In this document: one piece after another, positions 3,507 through 19,764 of the stretch | Layout: each line of letters opens with the position of its first letter | Position numbering within the stretch: the stretch's first letter is position 1 | Origin: a virus | Direction: 5' to 3' (one strand) | Virus record (IMG/VR): IMGVR_UViG_3300010354_000745 | Coordinates: 1-22,324 of that record | Length of the DNA: 22,324 nt | Program-made: the position numbers and the translations under genes | The notes under the pieces: model-generated | Seen by the model: only the letters and a program-made list of their open reading frames with translations | Databases searched by the model: none | Told to the model about the DNA's origin: nothing

Positions 3507-3514
3507 TATAAATA
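3507..3514 (+). promoter_or_regulatory. T4-type late promoter, leaderless arrangement
   Basis: Perfect TATAAATA, only 4 bases before the ATG at 3519. In T4 late promoters transcription starts about 6 bases after this box, so the mRNA would begin at or inside the start codon. Confidence 0.55.
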
Positions 3515-4534: not shown

Positions 4535-5332
4535 TTAGCCTTGTACCCAAGTCAATGGTTGGCTGTAATCTACATAACGTTTTAATTCATCTATTAATGA
4601 TTCTTGTAATGCTTTACCTTCAGCTTTCATAGCAGTACCATTTAATGAAGAACCTCCACCTGGACCTGCTATTGAATTAAATTTTTCACGTGCTTCACCA
4701 ATTGTTACTTTAAGTGTGCCGAGTATAAAATCACCAATCCAAACGCCAGCACCTGGATCTTGCAATAAGACAATCTCTGGTCTTTGTACGTCCGCCCAGA
4801 TCAATACACGTTCACCAGTGGCTTTAGGATCACGAACAATACGCAAGACTTTAGTTACTGGATCAAATGTATAAACAACATAACCACCAAACATACGTGC
4901 AGCTAACTCAATGTAACCAGCATAAAAATCATATGTTGCCATACCACCTGCATAGTTATAGTTCAATAAGTATGTGTTAAGAATAGCACTACTAAATGGA
5001 TCAAAACTGCTTGCACCAGGGCCTGTTTCTAAACCAATAGTTCTACGAAAGATAGAACGCACATTAATGATATCTTGAGGCAACGTGTAAGTGTCCACAT
5101 TCTTTATAACTGTCATTAGTATGTAAGATTCTGCGGTTGAGTTTTGCGCTCTTTGACGATATATTTTTATGGCGTAGTTATAAGCCGCTTCGTAGTGATC
5201 TGGATCTAACTCCAAATCAATCATACCATCACCTAAACGTAGGCGAATATTTTTAAATAATGCTTGTTTTAATTCGTCAAGTGTTAACCCTGACGGCGTA
5301 CTCAAAGGACTTGCTAGTACTGATGCGCTCAT
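4535..5332 (-). CDS. 13: Neck protein gp13-like (head completion)
   Basis: Head-completion/neck protein that with gp14 closes the filled head and joins it to the tail. It has 265 residues (T4 gp13: 309). The N-terminal LKQALFKNIRLRLGDG then ELDPDHYEAAYNYAIKIY parallels T4 gp13 LKDVILRRLG...ELTPDQIYDCIQRALELY. The end, ALQESLIDELKRYVDY...WVQG, parallels the T4 helical tail ending in LYLLDPPFGILVG. These comparisons are from memory, not a search. GGAG lies 6 bases before the ATG, inside one arm of a 13-bp inverted repeat that also holds the late promoter. It is separated from gp14 by two non-structural genes and by strand, unlike the contiguous 13-14-15 order in T4. Confidence 0.85.
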   Translation of the reverse strand: MSASVLASPLSTPSGLTLDELKQALFKNIRLRLGDGMIDLELDPDHYEAAYNYAIKIYRQRAQNSTAESYILMTVIKNVDTYTLPQDIINVRSIFRRTIGLETGPGASSFDPFSSAILNTYLLNYNYAGGMATYDFYAGYIELAARMFGGYVVYTFDPVTKVLRIVRDPKATGERVLIWADVQRPEIVLLQDPGAGVWIGDFILGTLKVTIGEAREKFNSIAGPGGGSSLNGTAMKAEGKALQESLIDELKRYVDYSQPLTWVQG

Positions 5333-5335
5333 AAA

Positions 5336-5366
5336 AAACTCCAGATAACTTATTTATCTGGAGTTT
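5336..5366 (-). terminator. Inverted repeat/terminator overlapping gp13 promoter and Shine-Dalgarno
   Basis: Thirteen-base arms 5336-5348 and 5354-5366 are perfect complements with a 5-base loop. On the minus strand the stem ends in GGAG followed by a run of T, as in an intrinsic terminator for transcription coming from MazG. The second RNA arm contains the GGAG used by gp13, so read-through RNA would hide it. Confidence 0.75.
5351..5358 (-). promoter_or_regulatory. T4-type late promoter for gp13, nested in the inverted repeat
   Basis: GATAAATA on the minus strand, one mismatch from TATAAATA. The predicted start is near 5345, between the two arms of the inverted repeat. Late RNA would therefore lack the first arm, cannot fold the hairpin, and leaves GGAG free about 6 bases before the gp13 ATG. 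Confidence 0.65.
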
Positions 5367-5374
5367 GTTCTTAT

Positions 5375-5788
5375 TTAAAGATCACCTTCTTTTCTATTCT
5401 CACTATAAAATGCATCAAAACTTCCGCCGGGATATCTTGCTTCAAGTTTCTTTACATTCTCTGCAATAACATCATTAGGATCGTATCCAAGTGCCCTACA
5501 AGCATTGATCCAATACCAAATGATATCACCGAGTTCACGCTTCATATGAAAACGATTTTCTTCATTGAAGGGTTTACCTTGAAATATCATTTTCTTTACA
5601 ATCTCATCAAACTCGCCACCTTCACTTGCTAAACCAACTGCGGCTGTCATCAATAAACTAATGTTTAGGTTTGGTTGATCGTCCAACTCTTGCAGCCGGC
5701 GGATCATAGCCGAAACATCATTGCTTGCTTCGCTGGTTACCGCTTCTACAAAGTCCTGATATTTGTTTAAGTCAATTTTTTGTGTCAT
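5375..5788 (-). CDS. MazG-like nucleotide pyrophosphohydrolase
   Basis: All-alpha NTP pyrophosphohydrolase of the MazG/dUTPase-2 superfamily. It hydrolyses (d)NTPs or related nucleotides and is a common phage auxiliary gene, especially in marine T4-like phages. It has 137 residues. The metal-binding pattern ExxE...ExxD is complete: E56/E59 in SEGGEFDE and E85/D88 in RELGDIIWYW. The preferred substrate cannot be told from sequence. The ATG overlaps the end of the upstream 385-aa gene by one base, with AAGG about 8 bases before it, so the two form one unit behind a sigma70 promoter. It ends 9 bases before the inverted-repeat terminator that precedes gp13. Confidence 0.88.
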   Translation of the reverse strand: MTQKIDLNKYQDFVEAVTSEASNDVSAMIRRLQELDDQPNLNISLLMTAAVGLASEGGEFDEIVKKMIFQGKPFNEENRFHMKRELGDIIWYWINACRALGYDPNDVIAENVKKLEARYPGGSFDAFYSENRKEGDL

Positions 5789-6970: not shown

Positions 6971-6999
6971 ATTATATATCAAAGTCCATTTATTGTCAA
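6971..6999 (-). promoter_or_regulatory. Consensus sigma70 promoter (early) for 385-aa gene and MazG
   Basis: On the minus strand TTGACA (6994-6999) and TATAAT (6971-6976) are both 6/6 consensus, with an exact 17-bp spacer. The predicted start near 6964 leaves about 19 bases, including AGGAG, before the ATG at 6945. It is the strongest host-type promoter seen in the window. Confidence 0.88.
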
Positions 7000-7023: not shown

Positions 7024-7031
7024 GATAAATA
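7024..7031 (+). promoter_or_regulatory. T4-type late promoter for gp14-gp15
   Basis: GATAAATA, one mismatch from the late consensus, 19 bases before the ATG at 7051. It would give a leader of about 14 bases without a clear Shine-Dalgarno. It is back to back with the early sigma70 promoter on the other strand. Confidence 0.6.
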
Positions 7032-13126: not shown

Positions 13127-13366
13127 TTTCCATGGTCTGCCTTGATCAGGCAATAATGCTCTGTCTGCCCATGTGGTAAAATAATTATATTCTCTATAAT
13201 ATGGCTCACCAACACTAGAACGAATTGGTTCAGCAACTTCTAATAATTTAATACTAGCCTTTGCTTCTTGTAATGTTAGACTTTGAGAAACTGCTAGTGC
13301 AGGCGCATTGGTCTCTATATAATCATTCCAATTATCGTATCCAGATGGTGTTGGTGGTAATGCCAT
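13115..13366 (-). CDS. Small unknown protein coupled to the tail fibre
   Basis: 83 residues, unknown. It is rich in aromatic residues and proline, without a signal peptide or membrane segment: SGYDNWNDYIETNAP near the start, YYREYNYFTTWADRALLP near the end. The ATG overlaps the tail-fibre stop (TAATG), with AGGAAG 7 bases upstream, so it is translated with the fibre and is probably a fibre-associated virion protein or assembly factor. Its 3' end overlaps the glycosyltransferase-like gene by 12 bases on the opposite strand. Confidence 0.72.
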   Translation of the reverse strand: MALPPTPSGYDNWNDYIETNAPALAVSQSLTLQEAKASIKLLEVAEPIRSSVGEPYYREYNYFTTWADRALLPDQGRPWKLQP

Positions 13367-15435
13367 TATAGTCTTCCTACTGCTATTTCTATAATGCCTT
13401 CAACACCTTCAAAATTTTGAATAGCTTTACCTATTACCATGCCAGGTGTTGCATTATTCCATGGTCTTGCATAACCATTTCCTCCAGATACCATTAAGTC
13501 ACCCTTTTTAATATGACCTCTTACTTTAACAGGAACTCTACCTTGTAATGCAATAGGAACTGCATGTCCTGGACATCCAGCATTCATAACATATGCAGGA
13601 TCCGTACTGACTACACCTGCAACTCTAGTAGTACCATCTTGTGCTAATGTAACTTCTTTTTCACCGCCAAATTCTAATACAGTAGCAGGTTCGTATAGTT
13701 GATCTGCTTCATAATATTCAGCCAAGTCAGCATATGTAGCTTGTAAACGTGACCCTGCTGTTAGAACCCAATTACCAGTAATATTACCTAACGTTGTGTT
13801 AGCACCTGTACTTAGTTCTGTTGTAAGCATATTGCCAACAAAGTTTGTTGCTCCAATATTACCTACGTTTGCGTTTCCACTTACACTTAATGTTCCATTA
13901 ATGTTTGCACCAGTAGATGTGATTATAAGTTCAGTGGCGCCACCTGCAGCAGTGACTGAAATATTACCATTTGCCGTTATTGCAATATTACTATTACCGT
14001 TCTGAAGTAATCCACTATTAATTGTAGTAATGTTACCAGTTGTGATGATTGCTGTTGTAGTACCTAAGTTTCCAACGTTTGCATTACCACTTACTGATAA
14101 ACTTGTTAAAGTACCAACGCTTGTAATATTTGATTGTGCGCCCGTTGTAACAGTTCCTGCTGTTCCAGCAGTTGCAACACTCAAGTTAGCAACTTGAGTT
14201 GTTGATGTTACAACAAATGGAGCAGTACCAGTTACAATGTTAGATATTAATTGTGGTGCGGTAATATTAGCAGACGCCAATAATTGAGTTGTACCTAAGT
14301 TACCGACATTAGCATTTCCAGTTACACTTAATCGTGAGGAATTCAATAATCCTGTCGCAACATCAACGCTTAAATTTGCATTTGCAAATTCACTTACATT
14401 ACCTGTTAGTGCATTAGCTAACATTAAATAATGTGTACCTGTTGTTGCTGTAGTTATACTTATAAAATCTGTAACATTTGAATAAGCAACATTTAAGTTA
14501 CCTACACGTGTAGTACTAGTAACAACTAATGGTGAAGTTCCTGTTGCAACGTTAGATATCAATCTACTTGCAGTAACATTACTACTTACATTTAAATTAC
14601 CAGTTACATTACTTGTACCGGTAACATTAAGTGTTGAAGTTGTATTATTCCATGTAAAACTTGAGTCTCCGGCTGGGACACCTGCATAGTTATACTGTAC
14701 TGAAAATGTTGTGCCGGCTGCGCCTCCACCGCCCCCACCACTTCCCCCAACACTTGTAATAGCCCTACCATTTCCAGTATATGCTCCATATCCAGTGCCG
14801 TTAATTGGAATAGTCAATGCTGAATCACTATACAAACTAAACGTATTTGATGTAAGAACATTTGCAAAGTAACTGTTGCCGTTAAGTTGAGTCATGCCAC
14901 TGACGTTTGTGATTGTTACAACATCCCCGTCTGTAAAAAAGTTATCTGCACTTGTTGTTATAACAACAGGACTAGCTTGTGTAGCATTAGATATGTTAGC
15001 TGAAATAACTCCTTTAGGAGTCCAAGACAAGTTACCAGTACCATCAGTTTCTAATATATAACCAATAGCGCCACCACCAATTTTTAGTGTGCTTACGTTA
15101 CCCAAATGTATAGGACTACTGGCCCAATAGCTTGGTTCACCTGGATCAAGCGCATTGCCACCTCCATTTAACCAAGCATTTGAAGATTCATCATATACCA
15201 ATACTTGTCCGGTAACTGGACTTGAAATATTTAAATTCCCATAACTTCCAGTTAATTGACTGAAATCAATATTAGAGTATGAGGTTAATATTTCAATGTT
15301 TTCATTAGGTGTTGTTTTTCCTATAAACAGTCTTTTAGTATCTGAGGCCCAACCGAATTCAGCTTCATCAAGTTGCGGCAAATCAACTAAATTGCCAGAA
15401 CGAACTTGTATTTTTGATATTTGAATAATTGCCAT
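13366..15435 (-). CDS. Long tail-fibre/adhesin protein with repeats and C-terminal chaperone-like domain
   Basis: 689 residues. The N-terminus IQISKIQVRSGNLVDLPQLD then AEFGWASDTKRLFIGK (about 4-40) is the attachment-type head common in phage fibres. A Gly-rich linker GGSGGGGGGAAG followed by TTFSVQYN is also typical. The shaft repeats SGNANVGNLGTT-type units three times (roughly 14294-14331, 14060-14100 and 13853-13890). LISN-x-x-TGT-x-P-x-VVTSTT occurs twice (around 14521-14564 and 14211-14254). The last ~124 residues (from about 566: YADLAEYYEADQLYEPATV...GRVPVKVRGHIKKGDLMVSG) form a conserved C-terminal domain of marine phage fibres, resembling trimerising/self-cleaving chaperone domains. 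The likely role is host recognition. The late promoter lies in an inverted repeat just upstream; only a weak GAGA precedes the ATG. Confidence 0.87.
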   Translation of the reverse strand: MAIIQISKIQVRSGNLVDLPQLDEAEFGWASDTKRLFIGKTTPNENIEILTSYSNIDFSQLTGSYGNLNISSPVTGQVLVYDESSNAWLNGGGNALDPGEPSYWASSPIHLGNVSTLKIGGGAIGYILETDGTGNLSWTPKGVISANISNATQASPVVITTSADNFFTDGDVVTITNVSGMTQLNGNSYFANVLTSNTFSLYSDSALTIPINGTGYGAYTGNGRAITSVGGSGGGGGGAAGTTFSVQYNYAGVPAGDSSFTWNNTTSTLNVTGTSNVTGNLNVSSNVTASRLISNVATGTSPLVVTSTTRVGNLNVAYSNVTDFISITTATTGTHYLMLANALTGNVSEFANANLSVDVATGLLNSSRLSVTGNANVGNLGTTQLLASANITAPQLISNIVTGTAPFVVTSTTQVANLSVATAGTAGTVTTGAQSNITSVGTLTSLSVSGNANVGNLGTTTAIITTGNITTINSGLLQNGNSNIAITANGNISVTAAGGATELIITSTGANINGTLSVSGNANVGNIGATNFVGNMLTTELSTGANTTLGNITGNWVLTAGSRLQATYADLAEYYEADQLYEPATVLEFGGEKEVTLAQDGTTRVAGVVSTDPAYVMNAGCPGHAVPIALQGRVPVKVRGHIKKGDLMVSGGNGYARPWNNATPGMVIGKAIQNFEGVEGIIEIAVGRL

Positions 15436-15461
15436 AAGTGTAAATTCTCGGATTTACACTT
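15436..15461 (-). other. Inverted repeat abutting the tail-fibre start codon
   Basis: Perfect 10-base arms AAGTGTAAAT (15436-15445) and ATTTACACTT (15452-15461) with a 6-base loop. In minus-strand RNA the hairpin ends directly at the ATG (15435), with the weak GAGA site in the loop. Read-through RNA from the exonuclease gene would fold it; RNA from the late promoter would start inside the first arm. Confidence 0.68.
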
Positions 15462-15468
15462 ATTTATC
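15461..15468 (-). promoter_or_regulatory. T4-type late promoter for the tail fibre
   Basis: GATAAATA on the minus strand, one mismatch from TATAAATA. It touches the inverted repeat; the predicted start near 15455 would remove most of the first arm from the mRNA. Confidence 0.65.
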
Positions 15469-15469
15469 A

Positions 15470-16150
15470 CTATAGAAGGTAATACTGTTCAAGCCTACGG
15501 AACCACTTATCACTCCAGTTATCAAACTCATTACCTTCTATAATAAATTCTTGGTAGATATTATCAGCAGAACACATAAAAATAACACCTTTACGTATCT
15601 TTGTTCCGTGAACTTCATTGTGTGCATTAGCGTAGGCTGCTAACTGTATAAAGTAATCATCAATCCACTCACGTTTCTTGAGTTTATTAGTTTGTTTGTG
15701 GTCCATGATAGCTTCGCTATTGTCATGTACACCAACTAAGTCGGTAGTTCCTGCGTAAATTTTAGGAAAATATAATGATACTTCTGTGCCCCAAAATTCA
15801 TTACATTTACTTAATCCCTGATAGATTATACTTTCTGCCATTTTGTGACTTTGTATACTGTATGGATTAGAGCCAGGGGTACCTAACTTTCCTGTTTTAA
15901 TATAATCTTCGATCCATTTATGCATACGTGTACCACGACCTGCAGCCTCTGTGGTAATCTCTTGTGCTTTTTTATGACCCACTCTATTACGCCACTCGTT
16001 AAGTCTTTCGAGTTTTTCCTTTGGGGTAGTAGCTGAAAGTATAGTAGTTACGCTAGGTAGTTTCTCACCATCTGGTGTAGCGTATCTACGTTCTCCATTG
16101 ATTGTTTCCCTATTAATTGAAACATAATTAAATTTGTTTGGTATATACAT
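15470..16150 (-). CDS. PD-(D/E)XK exonuclease, RecB/Cas4-like
   Basis: 226 residues, the size of a single RecB-type nuclease domain. GRGTRMHKWIED (71-82, His77) is the usual N-terminal His motif. AGTTDLVG (133-140, D137) and IMDHKQTNK (149-156, D150 and K152) give the G-x-x-D...D-x-K active site. YFIQLAAYANAH (166-177, Q169 and Y173) is the Q-x-x-x-Y motif. Such phage enzymes digest DNA ends in replication, recombination or host DNA breakdown. The ATG overlaps the SGNH stop (TAATG), and the stop is 2 bases from the tail-fibre promoter. A DNA enzyme in a late unit with fibre genes is odd but is seen in crowded T4-like genomes. Confidence 0.87.
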   Translation of the reverse strand: MYIPNKFNYVSINRETINGERRYATPDGEKLPSVTTILSATTPKEKLERLNEWRNRVGHKKAQEITTEAAGRGTRMHKWIEDYIKTGKLGTPGSNPYSIQSHKMAESIIYQGLSKCNEFWGTEVSLYFPKIYAGTTDLVGVHDNSEAIMDHKQTNKLKKREWIDDYFIQLAAYANAHNEVHGTKIRKGVIFMCSADNIYQEFIIEGNEFDNWSDKWFRRLEQYYLL

Positions 16151-16926
16151 TAAGGTAGTATATCATCTTTTAATTTAAAATTACACCATTCTGGGAATTT
16201 TCTATGATATTTACTGGTTTTAATATAATCGTTTAATGTCAAAAATTTACTATTGTTGACAAACTCTAATTGAGGGTATACTTCTTTAATTTTATTGCTT
16301 ATAGTTTTATTCAGTGCATTTTGTCCATCTATATCATCATGACCGCAAGGTAATTTTGGCAATGCCCCTGTTAAATGACATAATGATCCCATGTCAAATT
16401 TATTTTGACTAAATCCATACATAGTGGGGAAATTCATCTTTACTTTATCTTTTTTCTCACACGGACCATCTGACCCATCATAATCAAACATAAGAAAAGG
16501 AATATTTAAGTTTTCAAATAAATTTATTAAACTTAATTTATATAGAATTGTACGTCTAATAAAATCTTCATCATTCCAGTTATCTAATAATGCCTTTTGA
16601 TTATTATTCCATTTTTGAACGTCTGTATCAGGATAAGTAACAAATATATAATCAAGTTCCTTATTTAACCAGGATTCTTTCCTCCATTTTTGTGACCATT
16701 CAATTATTACAAGTGGTTTATATTGATCTACTGATAAATTTTCATAAATGTATTCATATGTTCTTCTATGGATGCTATCGTTACCAACTCCCGGTATACC
16801 TAAATTTACAACAGGACAATTAAAGTTATTAGCTATTTGTGCAGGCCAACCATCAACAATCATGTTTGGTAAACCTTGACAATATGTATAACTACAACCG
16901 TTCGTTACAATATGAGAAATTTTCAT
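16150..16926 (-). CDS. SGNH/GDSL-like hydrolase family protein
   Basis: 258 residues from the ATG at 16926, chosen because it directly follows the IscA-like stop (TGAGATG). The frame also opens at an upstream TTG (16989) inside that gene. The opening KISHIVTNGCSYTYCQGL matches block I of SGNH-type proteins with Ser in GCSYT. NLGIPGVGNDSIHRR is the glycine/asparagine block, VIIEWSQKWRKES a core strand, and GHDDIDGQNAL near residue 216 supplies the late Asp/His. Members act on esters and acyl groups of glycans or lipids. In marine phages this subfamily is common but uncharacterised, so substrate and activity are unknown. It is one-base-coupled to the exonuclease downstream. It could modify host surface glycans or fibre-linked sugars (inference). 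Confidence 0.75.
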   Translation of the reverse strand: MKISHIVTNGCSYTYCQGLPNMIVDGWPAQIANNFNCPVVNLGIPGVGNDSIHRRTYEYIYENLSVDQYKPLVIIEWSQKWRKESWLNKELDYIFVTYPDTDVQKWNNNQKALLDNWNDEDFIRRTILYKLSLINLFENLNIPFLMFDYDGSDGPCEKKDKVKMNFPTMYGFSQNKFDMGSLCHLTGALPKLPCGHDDIDGQNALNKTISNKIKEVYPQLEFVNNSKFLTLNDYIKTSKYHRKFPEWCNFKLKDDILP

Positions 16927-18352: not shown

Positions 18353-18360
18353 TATTTATC
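18353..18360 (-). promoter_or_regulatory. T4-type late promoter for the 248-aa/IscA/fibre unit
   Basis: GATAAATA on the minus strand, overlapping the stop codon of the upstream 162-aa gene. The predicted start near 18347 gives a leader of about 22 bases with AGGAT before the ATG at 18325. Confidence 0.62.
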
Positions 18361-19288: not shown

Positions 19289-19296
19289 TATTTATA
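19289..19296 (-). promoter_or_regulatory. T4-type late promoter, leaderless arrangement
   Basis: Perfect TATAAATA on the minus strand, exactly 5 bases (GCTCT) before the ATG at 19283. The expected start, 6 bases after the box, is the A of the ATG. It lies 7 bases after the strong terminator at 19304-19330. Confidence 0.7.
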
Positions 19297-19303
19297 GAGG
19301 TAA

Positions 19304-19330
19304 AAAAAGCCCGATAAAATCGGGCTTTTT
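19304..19330. terminator. Strong intrinsic terminator after the small virion-type gene
   Basis: Perfect 12-base arms 19304-19315 and 19319-19330 (A5-GCCCGAT / ATCGGGC-T5) with a 3-base loop and an extended T run on the minus strand. It ends the 121-aa gene transcript and insulates it from the late promoter at 19289. Confidence 0.92.
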
Positions 19331-19345
19331 ATGAACAAGTTTAAA

Positions 19346-19711
19346 TTAACCTGTGAATGTTGCACTAGCAGCAACTGTACATGCTTCAACAGCAGCAGTT
19401 AACGCTGTGTCTAGAGATGTTGTTGTCCATGCACCAACTGGATATACAGCAACAGCTAATGTGTCGTTTGTGTCGTCTGTATATTCATACATGTAAATTG
19501 TAGCTAATTGCTGAATTGTCTGAACTGCTGTGTTCAACTGTGTTGTTGTCAATGCACCTGTGAAAGTGATTGTGAAAAAGTCTAATTTAGGACCTTGTGG
19601 TTGAACTGTAGCACCAGAAACAACTGCGTTTACACCGTTGTTTGTGTAATCAAAACTGTCAAAGTTTTGTACTGGTTGATAGTCACCGTTAACTCTTGTA
19701 AATTGTGCCAT
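19346..19711 (-). CDS. Small virion-type protein, single-gene late unit
   Basis: 121 residues with few charges, rich in Thr, Ala and Val. Features: an N-terminal strand region (YQPVQNFDSFDY), then LDFFTITFTGALTTTQLNTAV, then IYMYEYTDDTNDTLAVAVYPVGAW and a Thr/Ala-rich end. I recall similar small proteins in marine T4-like phages but no proven function. It is isolated as its own unit: a late box (19757), a 5' hairpin, AAGGAA 8 bases before the ATG, and a 12-bp terminator after the stop. That is how very abundant virion or decoration proteins are organised, so a capsid or tail-surface role is inferred. Confidence 0.75.
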   Translation of the reverse strand: MAQFTRVNGDYQPVQNFDSFDYTNNGVNAVVSGATVQPQGPKLDFFTITFTGALTTTQLNTAVQTIQQLATIYMYEYTDDTNDTLAVAVYPVGAWTTTSLDTALTAAVEACTVAASATFTG

Positions 19712-19733
19712 TTTAAAATTCCTTTAATAAGTT

Positions 19734-19750
19734 TGAAGCCTACTGCTTCA
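19734..19750 (-). other. 5' leader hairpin of the small virion-type gene
   Basis: TGAAGC (19734-19739) pairs with GCTTCA (19745-19750) across a 5-base loop. The predicted late start (about 19751) puts this hairpin at the extreme 5' end of the mRNA, upstream of AAGGAA and the ATG at 19711. Confidence 0.6.
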
Positions 19751-19756
19751 TACACT

Positions 19757-19764
19757 TATTTATT
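19757..19764 (-). promoter_or_regulatory. Late-promoter variant for the small virion-type gene
   Basis: AATAAATA on the minus strand, one mismatch from TATAAATA, followed immediately by the leader hairpin. It lies between the stop of the KWDG protein gene and the 121-aa gene. Confidence 0.58.

Follow-up and report, generated by a model that had tools for sequence, protein, structure and literature searches.

A covarying hairpin that encloses a predicted T4-type late start probably delays translation of a putative tail-fibre gene in uncultured jumbo phages

The start of a putative tail-fibre gene in a group of uncultured jumbo phages carries a conserved RNA hairpin which, judging from sequence comparison and predicted folding, probably delays translation of the gene until a late RNA is made. 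The site was studied in a DNA stretch of 22,324 bases (hereafter the window), a fragment that makes up the whole of its virus record. The fibre gene (13366..15435, minus strand, 689 amino acids) is assigned by a match of its C-terminal part to the tail fiber family phrog_19602, and its N-terminal part has no counterpart in any cultured phage record. Upstream and on the same strand lies an exonuclease gene (15470..16150; phrog_298, E = 8.5e-55), and a terminator scan detected none between the two genes.

On the minus strand, positions 15468-15430 read GATAAATAAGTGTAAATCCGAGAATTTACACTTATGGCA. This segment holds a perfect 12-bp inverted repeat with arms at 15463-15452 and 15445-15434, and folding as well as covariation argue for a stem-loop (15434..15463) with a 6-nt loop, ATAAGTGTAAAT CCGAGA ATTTACACTTAT, in which the A and the U of the fibre AUG (15435-15433) are paired inside the 3' arm. 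The initial annotation had rightly seen a repeat here and the absence of a T run, but it had given a length of 10 bp and an end before the ATG, which the repeat in fact enters. It had also placed a late box over the distal arm, and the T4-type late promoter box GATAAATA (15461..15468, minus strand) does share 3 nt with the 5' arm. The strand with the hairpin folds with z = -3.18 relative to shuffles that preserve dinucleotides but not codons where the upstream sequence is coding, and a stem of at least 12 bp in this topology is expected by chance 0.01 times among the late sites of the window.

Boxes of the ATAAATA type act like a late promoter motif in these phages, since ORF starts are enriched nearby. 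Among the ten such boxes of the window, eight have the start of a mechanically called ORF (at least 60 codons) within 75 nt, versus 24% for control 7-mers, and the corresponding values in two related records (about 350 kb) are 67% and 20-21%. A late sigma factor resembling gp55 gives weak matches in five of seven related records (best E 1e-6 to 6e-3), the window itself being a fragment. Furthermore, late boxes stand 11-13 nt ahead of an ATG at 102 of 324 late sites in five relatives (G001-G004 and G006; L082-L153) and at none of 30 in T4. As few as four of these 102 have a Shine-Dalgarno sequence, and we predict from this arrangement that they give leaderless late mRNAs. Such a spacing is expected if the RNA begins at the ATG itself, which supports placing the start 13 nt past the first base of the box. 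Together with the T4 spacing, it puts the predicted late start of the fibre gene at 15455 (minus strand). The proposal of a late start near 15455 agrees with T4 spacing, but RNA begun there would keep four of the 12 arm bases, that is a third of the arm and not half of it.

A search of viral contigs with the fibre protein returned 80 related loci, and the box-to-ATG region is represented by 34 distinct sequences, one from the window and 33 from relatives. The late box is present in every one, and in 32 of them box, hairpin and AUG keep the same register; here the pairing begins at the same base, and perfect stems of 8-12 bp enclose loops of 5-17 nt. Among the exceptions, L066 has its final bases unpaired, and L067 and L068 have no hairpin and carry a Shine-Dalgarno sequence, AGAAGGA, upstream of the ATG. 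In an alignment of the 33 distinct hairpins (L067 excluded), double-sided changes occur at eight of the 12 pairs and amount to 36 cells, against a shuffled mean of 9.6, and 91.9% of the cells are paired, a value that falls to 28-56% once the arms are slid. The covariation score of 0.268 is equalled in none of 500 shuffles (0.113 when shuffled, at most 0.070 when slid). By Fitch parsimony on a tree of 45 taxa, pairs 4 to 8 take 5, 6, 4, 2 and 2 changes, mostly of both partners together, in a set of related records that are not mutually independent. On the evidence of this covariation, the fibre hairpin is an RNA element under selection.

The same observations bear on the alternative of a DNA operator, in which a protein dimer would bind the repeat, as a palindrome immediately past the late box, and repress or activate the promoter. 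Indeed, the repeat overlaps the region where the promoter starts, and the operators of T4 I-TevI overlap late promoters (PMC2988022). We nevertheless consider an operator improbable. An operator would tend to keep its letters, whereas the arms change in sequence with pairing kept, and an RNA hairpin is therefore favoured. The loop varies in a way that breaks half-site spacing, and 32 of the 34 variants have the repeat directly against the AUG. Finally, a covariance model of the hairpin matches a single gene, with one strong copy per record in four related records, at the fibre gene; one of the four has a weaker extra copy as well, which lies at a GIY-YIG gene.

The RNA hairpin would work as a switch in the following manner. 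RNA from the early-type promoter of the exonuclease would read through into the fibre gene, and in this RNA about ten bases at the end of the leader, together with part of the AUG, would be paired in the hairpin, which would keep ribosomes from starting. Late in infection, a T4-type late RNA polymerase would initiate within the 5' arm; the late RNA, deprived of most of that arm, would stay open and be translated. The observed basis of this scheme consists of the hairpin with its conservation and covariation, the position of the box and the -10 element ahead of the exonuclease in most relatives; from these we infer the late start site, the read-through, the block of translation and the timing. 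In line with it, the predicted probability of being unpaired, for bases -10 to +3 around the fibre start, has a median of 0.14 in the long RNA and of 0.60 in the late RNA begun 13 nt past the first base of the box; the long RNA of the window itself likewise has 0.14. The switch had been proposed in the initial annotation, and comparison bears it out with a covarying hairpin, a box in the 5' arm, an early-type exonuclease element and an accessible late leader, while the extension to a genome-wide rule went too far. A Shine-Dalgarno sequence occurs in two of 33 fibre leaders only, both of them exceptions, whereas other late leaders with a length of 20-60 nt have one in 56-78% of cases. Because the leader is without one, translation of the open late fibre RNA is an unexplained assumption.

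The switch requires an early exonuclease followed by a late fibre. The exonuclease is probably early, since a sigma70-type -10 element stands at a fixed place upstream of it. Of 41 distinct relatives, 25 have the hexamer between -14 and -11 relative to the exonuclease ATG, compared with 5.4% of other genes and with a mean count of 1.5 per 4-nt bin at other places, and matches to the -35 element are above chance (3.92 versus 2.63). In the window, the element is an extended -10-like TGATATACT (16157..16165, minus strand) with a poor -35, its hexamer being at -12 from the exonuclease ATG, a position that suggests a leaderless early RNA as well. Some observations speak against a delay imposed on early read-through: the window promoter is weak at -35, 16 of the 41 relatives have no -10 hexamer at that place, a late promoter at 18360 might serve the exonuclease too, and L067 and L068 manage with a Shine-Dalgarno sequence instead of the hairpin. 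Read-through from the promoter at 18360 would be silenced by the hairpin as well. In the cultured phage PA5oct, TTGACA-17-TATAAT precedes the exonuclease and a late box precedes the next structural gene; no hairpin was found downstream of the exonucleases of XbC2, Kaldavass and PA5oct.

The exonuclease stop lies near the 5' arm, at 6 nt from it in the window, which lends itself to another reading, translational coupling, in which the hairpin bars independent starts and ribosomes finishing the exonuclease open it, tying fibre output to that of the exonuclease. The stop-to-arm gap rules against coupling, as it is not fixed but ranges from 5 to 24 nt wherever it can be read; moreover, the ribosomes would have to restart without a Shine-Dalgarno sequence, and coupling gives no reason for the late box to keep its place in the arm. 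We rate coupling as slightly less probable even than the operator. Lower again stands the hairpin as a terminator of the exonuclease RNA or as a processing site at which that RNA is trimmed. Its position between two genes and the T run of the counterpart at gp13 would suit this function, but a terminator need neither abut the AUG nor contain a promoter, the fibre hairpin is omitted by the terminator scan, and the want of a T run after it leads us to reject this candidate; RNase cleavage at the hairpin is still conceivable. Although short repeats are plentiful in AT-rich genomes such as this one, a chance repeat beside a true late promoter has next to no credibility and is refuted by the shuffle tests and by the way in which 33 distinct hairpins are conserved and covary.

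The likening of the fibre hairpin to a site at gp13 proved apt, as the latter is a second conserved nested case, present in relatives and in cultured phages. In the window, it spans 5333..5369 on the minus strand and consists of 16-nt arms (94% complementary) around a late box at 5358-5351, with a T run ahead of the ATG of gp13, a neck gene (head-tail adaptor Ad2; 4535..5332, minus strand). The gene upstream encodes a MazG-like pyrophosphatase (5375..5788, minus strand) and ends a gene pair headed by a perfect sigma70 promoter, TTGACA-17-TATAAT (12/12; 6971..6999, minus strand); the gene preceding MazG begins just past this promoter. The same promoter stands back to back with a plus-strand late promoter at 7024. 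Among relatives, the gp13 hairpin recurs in L107 and L143, where its arms differ, is weaker in L125 and L136 and is absent from L098. Among cultured jumbo phages whose gene upstream of gp13 lies on the same strand, Munch, fENko-Kae01, Muenster, RCIP0023 and XaC1 each show a strong hairpin that encloses a late-type box and finishes near the ATG, and PA5oct has a weak one. No hairpin was found in Vibrio 2.275.O, Phosso and Atu_ph07, where the upstream gene is on the opposite strand. The resulting count, five of six against none of three, is no test of independent events because these phages are interrelated.

Enrichment over shuffled sequence, proposed at the outset as a check, is indeed found. 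In a wide scan of five relatives, with the fibre site excluded and the late start required to lie between the arms, late promoters behind a same-strand gene carry stems of at least 9 bp in 14 of 115 cases, where shuffles predict 2.04, and the other late promoters do so in two of 54, where 1.02 are predicted. For stems of at least 10 bp, the counts are nine (0.62 expected) and one (0.26 expected), respectively. A narrower scan, in which the 5' arm starts at the box, misses sites of the gp13 type. By itself, the difference between these two classes of promoter is no more than suggestive (Fisher p = 0.064). A genome-wide rule therefore receives support as to enrichment and none as to generality: with 14 of 115, about 12% of the late promoters preceded by a same-strand gene, the device serves a minority of late genes although above the shuffled expectation, and most late genes have no stem. 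Nested hairpins thus guard some early-to-late junctions; they do not guard every late gene.

The guarded genes, whose names other than gp13, MazG and exonuclease were read off translations, tend to follow non-structural genes: MazG precedes gp13 in two relatives as well as in the window, a HesB-like gene precedes a fibre-like gene in two relatives, and a methyltransferase precedes the terminase. At L090:8228 (G001), a gene resembling GIY-YIG homing endonucleases lies directly behind the ribonucleotide reductase gene nrdA, with a nested hairpin as in T4 and Aeh1. Also in G001, at L098 around 11625 on the minus strand, a GIY-YIG-like ORF ends with the C-terminus of MazG (SFDAYYSENRKEGDL), an arrangement that would result if an endonuclease gene took the place of most of MazG, and the next gene is fibre-like with a 13-bp nested hairpin.

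Elsewhere in the window, late boxes at leaderless spacing are found at 3507 on the plus strand and at 19296 on the minus strand. Just before the latter, which an ATG follows at that spacing, lies a strong terminator-like hairpin (AAAAAGCCCGAT/ATCGGGCTTTTT; 19304-19330, minus strand). At 19711-19764 on the minus strand, the last bases of the late box AATAAATA pair with a downstream ACTTATT in a larger hairpin, the fold having -11.9 kcal/mol versus -6.9 for the late RNA (p = 0.035).

These results widen the reach of a mechanism described for a handful of T4 genes to a large uncultured group of jumbo phages, and the covariation is evidence of selection. They provide a simple and testable rule, namely that a hairpin guards the place where early genes run into late genes, and designate Munch, Muenster and XaC1 as cultured phages that share the design at the gp13 junction. 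The leaderless spacing suggests a second route to late genes that can be read solely from late starts. As a conjecture that falls a little short of being probable, jumbo phages with T4-type late promoters might generally guard the junctions between early and late structural genes with nested hairpins, each with its own arm sequences, and together with leaderless late RNAs this would leave many late genes translatable solely from late starts.

In the open-access literature, we found no report of a nested hairpin in jumbo phages. The promoter-stem-loop cassettes of T4-like phages are intergenic mobile cassettes; they share a promoter and a stem-loop between genes with the fibre element, but the latter is fixed at one gene and has its promoter within the stem. 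Experiments have established the same design of hairpin and nested late promoter for T4 e, soc, 49 and I-TevI (PMC3014915, PMC2988022). In the case of e, long transcripts yield about 100-fold less lysozyme, and late transcripts are devoid of the 5' strand (PMC3014915). The homing-endonuclease genes segB of T4 and mobE of Aeh1 carry such hairpins too (PMC2988022), in the same arrangement as at the fibre site, whose gene is structural and not mobile. The same scan, run blind over 150 kb of T4, places I-TevI, e and 49 as its top three, with energies of -11.6, -13.3 and -13.5, compared with -11.5 for the fibre site. As in the four T4 genes, the start region would be covered in long RNA begun upstream, the late promoter lies in the DNA of the 5' strand, which late RNA would mostly lack, the late gene stands behind early or middle genes, and stem length and energy are comparable. 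Unlike e and I-TevI, which have a Shine-Dalgarno sequence, the fibre site has none in its 3' arm, which reaches only the AUG; it also differs from the four in guarding a tail fibre, in uncultured jumbo phages, and in covarying, with the hairpin kept in 32 of 34 variants. The fibre site belongs to the T4-type mechanism, itself already known, and since T4 e, soc, 49 and I-TevI share its design, it constitutes a new case of that design and not a new kind.
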